Assembly (NCBI GenBank): GCA_026705345.1
Contig: JAPPAV010000026.1
Span: 25,500-89,499 of the forward strand
DNA from: Gammaproteobacteria bacterium
GTDB lineage: Bacteria; Pseudomonadota; Gammaproteobacteria; Pseudomonadales; Azotimanducaceae
Length of the DNA stretch: 64,000 nt
Reading direction: 5' to 3'
The notes under the pieces are model-generated. The model was not told the origin of the DNA and ran no database searches. It saw only the letters and a list, made by a program, of their open reading frames with translations. The first letter of the stretch is position 1; every line of letters begins with the position of its first letter. This document shows positions 52,656 through 56,700 of the stretch, in pieces. Position numbers and translations under genes: made by a program.

Positions 52656-53543
52656 TCAGGCGAGGCTGATAGGCGGCCTGCAACCGTTCTCGAAGGTGAC
52701 CGAACGATAGCTACGCTTATCGGCCAGCAGTTGCCTCACCAAGCCGTTGTTGGACGCGTGGCCGGATTGGTAGCCGGAAAACGCCCCGATGATTGGATGG
52801 CCAGCAATGTAGAGGTCGCCGATCGCATCGAGGATCTTGTGCTTGACGAACTCGTCCTCGCAGCGAAGACCCTCGTCGTTGAGCACCCCGTCGTCGTCGA
52901 CGACCACCGCATTGTCCAGGCTGCCGCCACGGACCAGGTCCATGGCGCGCAGCCGTTCGATGTCCGATAGGAAACCGAACGTGCGGGCCGGACTGATGTC
53001 GCGAATGAACGCCCGCGAAGAGAAGTCCACGGACGCATGCTGGCAGATTCCCTCGAAGTAGGGATGATCGTAGTTCATCGTGTACTCGAGCCTGAACCCG
53101 TCGTGCGGCGATAGAGTGGTGGTCGCGCATCCATCCGTCCAACTCACCTCCCGCGTGACCTCCAGGAAGCGCTTAGGTGCGGGTTGCTCCTCGATGCCCG
53201 CCGCCCGGATGAGCCGAACGAATGGTGCGGCGTTGCCGTCCATGATCGGCAGCTCCGAGCCGTTCACATCGACTTCGGCATTGTCGATGCCCAAACCGGC
53301 GAAGGTCGCCATCAGGTGTTCGATCGTGGAAATCCGGACATCGTCGTCGCCGAGGGTCGTCGCAAGTTGGGTGTCGACGACGTTTTGAGCTTTCGCCTCG
53401 ACGCTGCAGCCCAAATCGCAACGCCGAAACACAATGCCCGCGTCCGGGTGCATCGGGCGGATCGTCAGGTCGACCTCCTGACCGGTGTGGAGCCCCACTC
53501 CCTTCGCGCGCACCGCCCTTGCTAGCGTTTTTTGTTTTGTCAA
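52656..53543 (-). CDS. lpxC: UDP-3-O-acyl-N-acetylglucosamine deacetylase
   Basis: This 295-residue zinc enzyme commits the cell to lipid A synthesis. Zinc ligands are in STIEHLMA, and in FVKHKILDAIGD (His and Asp); SGYQSGHASNN is another hallmark. A TTG at 53543 is used, with AGG six bases upstream. In many gammaproteobacteria lpxC directly follows ftsZ; here it is about 2 kb away, past two regulator genes. Confidence 0.93.
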   Translation of the reverse strand: MTKQKTLARAVRAKGVGLHTGQEVDLTIRPMHPDAGIVFRRCDLGCSVEAKAQNVVDTQLATTLGDDDVRISTIEHLMATFAGLGIDNAEVDVNGSELPIMDGNAAPFVRLIRAAGIEEQPAPKRFLEVTREVSWTDGCATTTLSPHDGFRLEYTMNYDHPYFEGICQHASVDFSSRAFIRDISPARTFGFLSDIERLRAMDLVRGGSLDNAVVVDDDGVLNDEGLRCEDEFVKHKILDAIGDLYIAGHPIIGAFSGYQSGHASNNGLVRQLLADKRSYRSVTFENGCRPPISLA

Positions 53544-53863
53544 CTGACGCCTGCCGTGCAGATGTACTACGTCCCCGGCGTCCCCGAACGCCCCAACGCC
53601 GAGCTAGGTGGTGCAGTTCGATGCCTTGGCGGCATTCCGTCGTCGTTCGTCCCCACGACGGCATCGTCCAAACCCCGCGCACCGACCAACGAGCCGGCGA
53701 CCGAATAGTAGCAATCGGTTCGAACCGCCACTGCCGAACTTTTGTAACAGTTTGTATCGATTAGATTTTTGGGGAGTCGAGGTGCGAACAGAACTGATCA
53801 TCCAATCACCCCCGGACTCCAGCGCAGACGTCGCGGAGGCCGAATCAACCCGGCAGACAAGCT
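53544..53863. other. Intergenic region upstream of lpxC
   Basis: The 320 bases hold no gene I trust. The right part (about 53740-53780) is AT-rich and may be the lpxC promoter area, but no clean -35/-10 pair is visible on the minus strand. Short open frames at 53608-53874 (plus) and 53604-53801 (minus) have no family features. Confidence 0.5.
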
Positions 53864-54742
53864 CTAGCGTCTGATCAACCCCAATTCTTTGGCCACCTTC
53901 AGTGCCTCCGTTCGGCGTCTCACGGACAACTTCCGGTAGGCATTCTTCAGATGGTACTTGACGGTGTGCTCCGTCACGTCGAGTCCGTACGCTATTTCTC
54001 TGTTGGATGCACCCTTGTCGACTTCAACCAACACCTGCAGCTCCCGGCGGCTTAGGGGGACAGGATCGACACGAACTGTTTGTTCCAGCGCGTCCGGCAG
54101 GGGCTGATGAATGGCCACCCCGGCTCGGTTGGCACCGTCCATCCTAGACCCCTCGCCGTTCATTACTATGCGCTCCAGCGCCGCCGCGAAGGCTTGGATC
54201 AAACCCGATTTGTCCTTTCCTGACGGTTCGTCATCCCTTCCGGCCGCAAACGCCACAGCGGCGGGCACTATCAAACTCGCGAGTCGCCCGTTTGGCAATT
54301 GCAGGAGTTCGGGAGCCGCGCTCTCCGCGTCAAGCCGCCGCTGCCAAAACTCGGCGAGTCGTCTATTCAGCGACGCCAAGACCTGAACAACGGCGGGGTG
54401 CTTTGGTCCCGAGTTCGCGGCGCAAATCAACGCCGCCAAGTTGCCCCGACTGAGAGTCCGAACCGAGTGCCGAAGGGTTTCCGACAGCGTCGCACGCTGG
54501 GATTCCAAATGAGCGCCTAGGGCGTCTAGCAGTCGATCCGCCGCAAGTTCGAATACAACGACGTAGAGCTGCATCTTGTTGCCGAAGTGCCGGAACACCG
54601 TCTTGCACTCCACGTTGGCGCACATTGCGATGTCCTGGACCGACGTGGCCTCCAATCCCCGACGCGCAAACTGATCCAATGCCGCGTCGAGAATCTGTTG
54701 CTTCGTTTGCAGCTGTCCCTGGTTGTTTGCCACGAGAGTCAC
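53864..54742 (-). CDS. TetR-LuxR fused transcription regulator
   Basis: This 292-residue protein has an N-terminal TetR helix-turn-helix (about residues 12-58: LDQFARRGLEATSVQDIAM, then VFRHFGNKMQLY). A TetR-like ligand domain follows, and then a C-terminal LuxR/GerE helix-turn-helix (about 228-290: LSRRELQVLVEVDKGASNRE, and HTVKYHLKNAYRKL). Two DNA-binding domains of different classes in one chain is unusual. It lies between lpxC and ftsZ and diverges from a GntR gene. The GTG start at 54742 has alternatives nearby. The ligand and targets are unknown. Confidence 0.85.
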   Translation of the reverse strand: MTLVANNQGQLQTKQQILDAALDQFARRGLEATSVQDIAMCANVECKTVFRHFGNKMQLYVVVFELAADRLLDALGAHLESQRATLSETLRHSVRTLSRGNLAALICAANSGPKHPAVVQVLASLNRRLAEFWQRRLDAESAAPELLQLPNGRLASLIVPAAVAFAAGRDDEPSGKDKSGLIQAFAAALERIVMNGEGSRMDGANRAGVAIHQPLPDALEQTVRVDPVPLSRRELQVLVEVDKGASNREIAYGLDVTEHTVKYHLKNAYRKLSVRRRTEALKVAKELGLIRR

Positions 54743-54961
54743 AACGCACGAAGTCGCCCGACGGTTCCGAGCGCACGTTCCGCGATTGGATCGGGCCGGT
54801 CAATCGAATATCGCCTCAAGTTGTGTCGTCATTTTCGGCGGGAGACCCAAGTGTCGTGTCCCACCAGTTCCTGCTACTTCAGTTCGGGGCAAGGGGTTGG
54901 GGCAAGGGCCGGAGCCACGAGGCAACGGCGTTCGTTGCGCTAGCCCCCCTGCAATCGTTGA

Positions 54962-54981
54962 TGTATTACTATGCGAATACA
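54962..54981. promoter_or_regulatory. Palindromic operator candidate upstream of the GntR gene
   Basis: TGTATT and AATACA are perfect 6-base inverted arms separated by eight bases, ending nine bases before the GntR ATG. Such a site fits autoregulation by a dimeric regulator. It overlaps the presumed promoter of the gene. Confidence 0.45.
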
Positions 54982-54990
54982 CTTGTGTCC

Positions 54991-55356
54991 ATGTACTCAC
55001 TCAACGCCGTCTCCGGCACGCCGATCTACCGACAGATCGCGGATCAGACCTGCCAGCTCGTCGCCAGCGGCCAACTGAGGCCGGACGAACATCTTCCGTC
55101 TGTCCGCGTCCTAGCGGGACAACTCGGCATTAACCCGATGACCGTTTCCAAGGCGTATTCCCTTCTCGAGCGGAACGGCATCGTCGCCCGCCGACGCGGT
55201 CTCGGCATGGTCGTCGTCGAGACCTCGATCACACCCGCCGAAACGATTCGCCCGCAAACCGTTGCTCTCGTCGAGGCCGCGCGGCGGCTCCAGCTAACCC
55301 GCAAGGAGGTCGCGGCAGCCATAGACCAAGCCTGGACAACAGACGAGGAAGGGTGA
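54991..55356 (+). CDS. Short GntR (YtrA-like) transcription regulator
   Basis: This 121-residue protein has the GntR winged helix (PIYRQIADQTCQLVASGQLR, LPSVRVLAGQLGINPMTVSK) and only a short tail, as in the YtrA subfamily. YtrA-type regulators usually sit next to ABC transporter genes; none is next to this one. ATG 54991 is chosen; GTG 54985 is possible. The gene ends 186 bases before the ftsZ stop, so the two converge. Confidence 0.83.
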   Translation: MYSLNAVSGTPIYRQIADQTCQLVASGQLRPDEHLPSVRVLAGQLGINPMTVSKAYSLLERNGIVARRRGLGMVVVETSITPAETIRPQTVALVEAARRLQLTRKEVAAAIDQAWTTDEEG

Positions 55357-55542
55357 CCGATACCCCTCACCAGCGTTGTCGTTAGCTACCGCCGAATCGA
55401 CCGATCCTCCTAGACATCAGTCTCGTGGCTGCCTAGTTCGATCACAGGCCTCGTCTGCCGCCGATGGCGCGGAAGGGCGCACGTGTGGGCCACGCCAGCT
55501 CATCGGCATCAGCTCAGCGTTCTGATACTGCCTTCCGGAGCG

Positions 55543-56700
55543 CTAGTCCGCCTGTCGACGCAGGAACGCCGGGATGTCGAGGTAGTCGGGATCCGATGGC
55601 GCCGTCCTCGTCGGCGCCTCATCGTTGGTGGGGTTGTTGCGCATTACGGTGGGACGATCCAGGTCCCGGTAGTTGGTCACGCCGATCGGATTGCGCACGG
55701 AAGTCGATGTGTCCGCGGATTCCGACTTGGCGCTGCCGAGGCCGGTCGCCACGACCGTGATCCGCATCTCCTCGCCGAGCGTCTCGTCGCTCACGGTGCC
55801 AATCACGACGGTTGCTCCTTTCGAGGCCAGGTCGCGGACCGAATTCCCGATGTCCTGGAACTCGCGGATGCCGACGCTCGGGGCTGTCGTGATGTTCACC
55901 ACGACGCCTCTCGCGCCGCGCAGGTCGACGTCCTCCAAGAGCGGGCTGTTGACAGCCTCTTCGATGGCGTCGCGAGCGCGATTGTCACCGGATGCCTGAC
56001 CGGTACCCATGATCGCCATGCCTCGCTCCGACATGACCGTACGGACGTCCGCGAAGTCGACGTTGATGCGGCCCGGCCTGATGATGATGTCCGAGATTCC
56101 TCTGACGGCGCCCAGCAGGACGTCGTCCACCGCCGCGAATGCCTGGTCCATCGTGGCATCGTCGTCGAATACCGATGGCAGTCGGTCGTTGGATATGGCG
56201 ATCACGGAGTCGACATGCTGTGTCAGCTCCACGATGCCCTGTTCCGCGACCTTCGTGCGGTTTTCGAACTCGAACGGTTTGGTCACCACCGCCACGGCCA
56301 ACGCGCCGATCTCCTTGGCGACCTCGGCCACGACCGGTGCCGCGCCGGTTCCGGTACCGCCGCCCATGCCCGCGGTGATGAACACCATGTCGGCCCCGGC
56401 CAGCACGTCGTGAATTCTGTCGCGATCCTCGATGGCCGATTGGCGTCCCACTTCCGGGCTTGTTCCTGCTCCGAGACCCTTGGTGATTTCGGCACCCAAC
56501 TGAAGCGTCGTCGGCCCCTGAAGGGTGCCGAGCGCCTGCGAGTCCGTATTGGCGGCGACGAAGTCGACGCCCTTCACACCGCTCGCGATCATGTGCTTCA
56601 CGGCGTTGCCGCCCCCGCCACCCACGCCGATCACCTTGATCACTGCGCTGCGCGTCGGACTGTCGACCAGCTCGAATGGCATATCCGTCGTCGTAGTCAT
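55543..56700 (-). CDS. ftsZ: Cell division protein FtsZ
   Basis: This 385-residue tubulin-like GTPase builds the division ring. It has the N-terminal GGGGGNAVKHM, tubulin signature GMGGGTGTGAAPVVAE and the C-terminal tail LDIPAFLRRQ that binds FtsA. ATG 56700 follows AGGA; an in-frame GTG lies two codons upstream. It is separated from ftsA by 133 bases. Confidence 0.97.
   Translation of the reverse strand: MTTTTDMPFELVDSPTRSAVIKVIGVGGGGGNAVKHMIASGVKGVDFVAANTDSQALGTLQGPTTLQLGAEITKGLGAGTSPEVGRQSAIEDRDRIHDVLAGADMVFITAGMGGGTGTGAAPVVAEVAKEIGALAVAVVTKPFEFENRTKVAEQGIVELTQHVDSVIAISNDRLPSVFDDDATMDQAFAAVDDVLLGAVRGISDIIIRPGRINVDFADVRTVMSERGMAIMGTGQASGDNRARDAIEEAVNSPLLEDVDLRGARGVVVNITTAPSVGIREFQDIGNSVRDLASKGATVVIGTVSDETLGEEMRITVVATGLGSAKSESADTSTSVRNPIGVTNYRDLDRPTVMRNNPTNDEAPTRTAPSDPDYLDIPAFLRRQAD

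Follow-up and report, generated by a model that had tools for sequence, protein, structure and literature searches.

A rare TetR-LuxR fusion regulator encoded between ftsZ and lpxC, possibly an orphan of bacteriocin-like peptide modules

To our knowledge, the DNA-binding domains of a bacterial one-component regulator are nearly always of a single kind. The protein considered here shares a TetR_N helix-turn-helix and the TetR fold with the one-component repressors of the TetR/AcrR family, of which FasR, DesT, QacR and MtrR were matched, but adds about 90 C-terminal residues with a second, GerE-type helix-turn-helix. With the large STAND/MalT-like LuxR proteins it has in common a GerE domain above the cut-off, the closest non-fusion GerE among the genomes searched being the end of a 913-aa MalT-like protein of genome G028 (67.7% identity over 65 residues); unlike GerE/LuxR regulators it possesses no receiver, autoinducer-binding, STAND or TPR domain and has a TetR half instead. 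In PimR and other SARP-LAL regulators a DNA-binding domain is likewise joined to a LuxR-family scaffold, but PimR, according to that work, is without a LuxR helix-turn-helix and hence not a chain with two such motifs (PMC5930380). For 991 actinobacterial LuxR proteins, TetR is not among the domains named in the figure legend (PMC3466318), and a search of the literature accessible without subscription found neither a paper on a natural TetR-LuxR fusion nor a match to the phrase 'TetR-LuxR'.

The divergent neighbour of the fusion gene encodes a short GntR-family regulator, for which PmtR provides the closest comparison. In Staphylococcus aureus, PmtR is reported to be a repressor of the GntR type that controls the exporter of phenol-soluble modulins and is released by the exported peptide itself (PMC5080381). 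Similarly, a short GntR adjoins a peptide-export ABC ATPase in the modules related to this locus, PmtR is among the NCBIfam matches of the GntR studied here, and PmtA is the best match of the ATPase from one such module (contig C106 of the same genome). Both are nevertheless far below the equivalog cut-offs, with 49.2 bits against 200 for the GntR and a cut-off of 350 bits for the ATPase; it is by analogy only that this GntR may sense a peptide as PmtR does.

Within the window, the whole stretch of 64,000 nucleotides that was analysed, the fusion gene and the divergent gntR make up an insert of about 1.77 kb between ftsZ and lpxC (Table 1). The fusion is a single open frame from its first GTG. 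That TetR and LuxR helix-turn-helix motifs lie in one chain, as the sequence-only reading had stated, is real, with TetR_N scoring 47.6 bits against a Pfam cut-off of 24 and GerE 65.1 bits against 23.5; a frameshift or assembly artefact joining two genes is ruled out because 15 other database proteins have both domains and a full-length relative is encoded at a different locus of another genome of the genus, G003. In the structural model, for which an alignment of nine rows was used (mean pLDDT 70.5, pTM 0.56), a TetR-type helical body is followed by an unstructured linker, with pLDDT below 50 at residues 194-224 of the 289-aa chain, and by a four-helix C-terminal domain whose placement relative to the TetR body is of low confidence. 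Model residues 3-194 match TetR-family crystal structures and show the all-helical ligand/dimer fold. Among the Pfam matches, examined up to an E-value of 1, there is neither the autoinducer-binding domain of quorum-sensing LuxR proteins nor a Response_reg match indicating a NarL/FixJ-type receiver, and the scores against NCBIfam TetR equivalogs all stay below the respective cut-offs.

Table 1. Features of the insert between ftsZ and lpxC, with positions in the window.
Feature	Position	Strand	Basis
Whole insert, ftsZ to conserved lpxC-upstream sequence	53774..55542		Relative to G003
TetR-GerE fusion gene	53864..54742	-	292 codons; 289 from database start at 54733
GerE/LuxR helix-turn-helix	53891..54058	-	Residues 229-284; Pfam PF00196, 4.4e-18
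Low-confidence linker	54062..54157	-	About residues 196-227
TetR-type ligand/dimer domain	54158..54562	-	About residues 61-195; TetR crystal-structure matches
TetR_N helix-turn-helix	54563..54694	-	Residues 17-60; Pfam PF00440, 1.5e-12
38-bp imperfect dyad upstream of fusion gene	54799..54836	+	Also at promoters of double-glycine peptide genes in related modules
Palindrome TGTATTACTATGCGAATACA, predicted GntR operator	54962..54981	+	Consensus match, whole-genome search
GntR-family regulator, short, divergent, 121 aa	54991..55356	+	Pfam GntR, 53.8 bits, cut-off 27

When the fusion was compared with about 5.8 billion proteins, 13 matched, nine of them with two domains, and a profile search gave 40, 14 of them with two domains; at most about 8000 word-sharing candidates were scored, and these counts are lower bounds. 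Together both searches identify at least 16 two-domain fusions, the window's own included, which carry both helix-turn-helix motifs in a single chain of about 277-301 aa, as the window's protein does, the others being 45-85% identical to it. The profile search missed two proteins (P0005 and P0006) present in the first search; it also returned two apparently N-terminally shortened fusions (P0021 and P0022), one protein consisting of the TetR part only (P0023, 198 aa, 47% identical) and 23 further matches which start at 5e-13 and mainly match one domain. At the genome level the rarity assumed by the sequence-only reading holds, as the full-length fusion occurs in two of 16 genus genomes, the window's and G003, in the same two among 206 family genomes, and in the window's genome only among 390 genomes of the order and 369 of the class, three others of the class set matching the GerE end alone. 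Judged by these matches, the small fusion family is limited to the window's genus among the genomes searched. In a scan of genome contigs, the sole matches were to portions of the TetR half, at three Paenibacillus-type loci, and none of 16 plasmid records with partial matches covers 80% of the protein.

Mean pairwise identity over the 16 fusions is 63% for the TetR helix-turn-helix, 48% for the ligand domain, 25% for the linker and 67% for GerE; within the family, conservation is highest in the two DNA-binding domains. The resemblance to the G028 protein suggests, without proving it, that the GerE part may derive from a large MalT-like LuxR protein. In a 25-row tree built from the TetR parts, four changes of the fusion label are needed; upon removal of P0039, P0046, G004C93 and the partial P0021 two changes suffice and one fusion clade is not rejected (p-AU 0.445), while the TetR-only P0023 falls among the fusions without firm placement. 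The tree is compatible with one or several origins of the fusion. A family that keeps both motifs would offer a natural case for how two DNA readers in one chain divide the work, and would bear on whether a repressor family can gain activation through domain capture.

The genomic context of gntR relatives points to a connection with peptide export. Twenty-one relatives of the window's gntR are found in nine of 16 genus genomes, and the recurring module consists of gntR, an ABC ATPase, HlyD, a C39-peptidase exporter and a double-glycine (class IIb bacteriocin-like) peptide, with a TetR gene in two instances. Eight of the 14 gntR loci examined in context, the window included, carry a C39-peptidase exporter sharing 66% identity or more with the one on contig C106 of the window's genome, G000 (this query counted); it is missing from the window, G002:C99 (a 3.8-kb contig), G011:C107, G013, G007 and G000:C88. 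At G000:C106 and G003:C68, one side of the module holds gntR, ABC ATPase, HlyD-type adaptor and C39 exporter; the other holds a double-glycine peptide and, after it, a TetR gene divergent from gntR, and these two TetR proteins are 38-39% identical to the TetR part of the fusion. Double-glycine peptides were matched seven times in five of 16 genus genomes. In the survey of gntR loci, a 'GG' frame in L072 was a spurious regular-expression match and is not counted. Two of three peptides tested pass the TIGR03949 cut-off of 21.5 bits (class IIb bacteriocin, lactobin/cerein family), G009:C93 with 25.1 and G003:C68 with 27.4 bits; the peptide remnant of G003:C240 gives no match. The full-length G003 fusion begins 37 bases downstream of this remnant, with a copy of the 38-bp element likewise upstream of it; no gntR is adjacent.

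The insert is similar to a portion of a double-glycine peptide export module. We regard the fusion, with a probability of roughly 0.5, as an orphan ligand-responsive regulator of bacteriocin-like peptide modules rather than of lpxC or ftsZ. Together with gntR, the fusion gene would have been left behind when this site lost peptide and exporter.

The 38-bp element is found, at three or fewer mismatches, at six sites in four of 16 genus genomes (control, 0), twice in the window's genome, namely before the fusion gene and before the peptide gene on C73. Three of the six sites are beside a matched peptide gene and one, in G002, beside a leaderless peptide-like frame; the window and G004:C10:15141 have no adjacent peptide. 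The copy at G000:C106 is too diverged for this search. As the element also occurs in modules without a detected TetR (G004:C10, G009:C93), it need not be the operator of the TetR-GerE protein. A search of inverted repeats for a TetR operator common to the TetR-bearing modules gave candidates that overlap the 38-bp element and occur in TetR-less modules too, so that none is put forward. Palindromes that could be TetR sites but cannot be told apart from the element are CGATTG-N-CAATCG in the window (54800-55000, minus strand, upstream of the fusion) and CGTTGAC-N10-GTCAACG on C106. On C73 (L091 9398-10063) a double-glycine peptide gene, the element and a broken gntR lie together, followed by an ABC ATPase frame, and a second copy on G004:C10 (L073 12142-12179), without a matched peptide gene, adjoins a small frame with a hydrophobic stretch.

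The palindrome upstream of gntR is common to 11 close gntR copies, about ten bases before the gene. Its consensus TGTATTANTATACTAATACA occurs, at three or fewer mismatches, at three places in the 5.07-Mb genome (reversed control, 0), before the gntR copies on C47, C69 (the window) and C106; since this pattern and the 38-bp pattern were derived from the same promoters in which they were later found again, the genome searches show rarity, not function. A fourth gntR copy, on C88 (51% identity), has no palindrome at this threshold.

As an orphan regulator of peptide modules, the fusion is predicted to dimerise through its TetR part and to bind an operator located at its own promoter and at those of related peptide genes, from which it would be released once its pocket takes up a ligand, which may be the exported amphipathic peptide or some other membrane-active molecule. 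Activation of transcription is the usual action of LuxR-type domains, and the GerE domains, on their flexible linker, are predicted to bind at a further site, from which transcription would probably be activated. One fusion protein could thereby repress and activate, or join two sites. The divergent GntR would act on the palindrome TGTATTA-N6-TAATACA to repress its own promoter; as this palindrome also precedes two other gntR copies in the genome, GntR may cross-regulate their exporter clusters. The common promoter elements indicate the modules on C47, C73 and C106 as candidate targets in trans, and the link to peptide modules points to concrete promoters. More tentatively, and doubtful as a complete scheme, the fusion might be a one-chain, two-operator switch, i.e. 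a TetR repressor with an activating helix-turn-helix borrowed from a large LuxR protein, in which the ligand turns repression into activation or bridging elsewhere and scattered peptide modules are coordinated in trans from an orphan locus.

It is rather unlikely that the insert is what remains of a bacteriocin-like module in decay, with a fusion protein of little or no present function. Peptide and exporter genes are indeed absent from the window's insert, the G003 fusion has an apparently broken peptide-like gene next to it, and the gntR accompanying the C73 peptide is broken too. At the same ftsZ-lpxC site of G002:C99, furthermore, a gntR of 90% identity is retained, the TetR part is gone with the leaderless peptide-like frame in its place, and the GerE end alone is kept at 87.5% identity; the fusion gene is therefore dispensable there. 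Against decay, the fusion is intact in 16 database proteins, in which both helix-turn-helix motifs are more conserved than the rest, and in G002 dN is 0.080 versus a dS of 0.371 even for the orphan GerE piece and 0.049 versus 0.449 for gntR. The GerE end in G002 (L035 1683-1928) is an 81-codon frame with GerE only, which could be a stand-alone helix-turn-helix protein.

Fusion and GntR might also constitute a self-contained divergent switch that targets only each other's promoters or other loci and not peptide export, as their divergent arrangement around a common upstream region of about 250 bp, with both promoter elements inside, and the lack of an adjacent exporter would allow. This is unlikely, as the GntR palindrome is also present at two exporter-linked gntR copies of the same genome and the G003 fusion adjoins a peptide remnant. 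Sigma-70-type promoters and terminators were not found within 53500-55600.

Window-type lpxC is encoded by 13 of 16 genus genomes, in eight of which ftsZ and lpxC are immediate neighbours, with the end of ftsZ 154-529 bases before lpxC; two, the window's genome and G002, have the insert, and in G009, G001 and G012 no ftsZ lies inside the 1.5 kb examined upstream of lpxC. Another, divergent gene is located upstream of lpxC in G009 (L105 2762-3886) and G001 (L106 1-1195), and the ftsZ-lpxC gap therefore appears to take up genes. The lpxC-upstream sequence (to about 53773), which lies outside the insert, is recognisable in four of six insert-free genomes compared, being conserved in G003, G004 and G006 and present in pieces in G011, and undetected in G007 and G008, the most distant of the six; the region holding the lpxC promoter is thus likely older than the insert and outside of it. 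That the fusion makes lipid A synthesis or cell division respond to a small molecule via lpxC or ftsZ, as had been proposed from its position, is highly improbable and was rejected as the leading reading, for apart from the location between both genes, its sole support in the window, and a G003 relative a few kilobases from the cell-shape gene mreB, with gat genes intervening, it is confronted with the eight genomes without the insert, the upstream sequence kept in four of them, the unlike genes in two others and the placement of the G003 fusion beside gatB. The lpxC/ftsZ neighbourhood is accordingly a poor guide to the role of the fusion.

The window's genome encodes two lpxC homologues of about 50% identity, at 52656-53543 of the window and at G000:C19:6773-7588. 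Both types are present in 13 of 16 genus genomes, and G014, G010 and G005 have only the other, non-window type.
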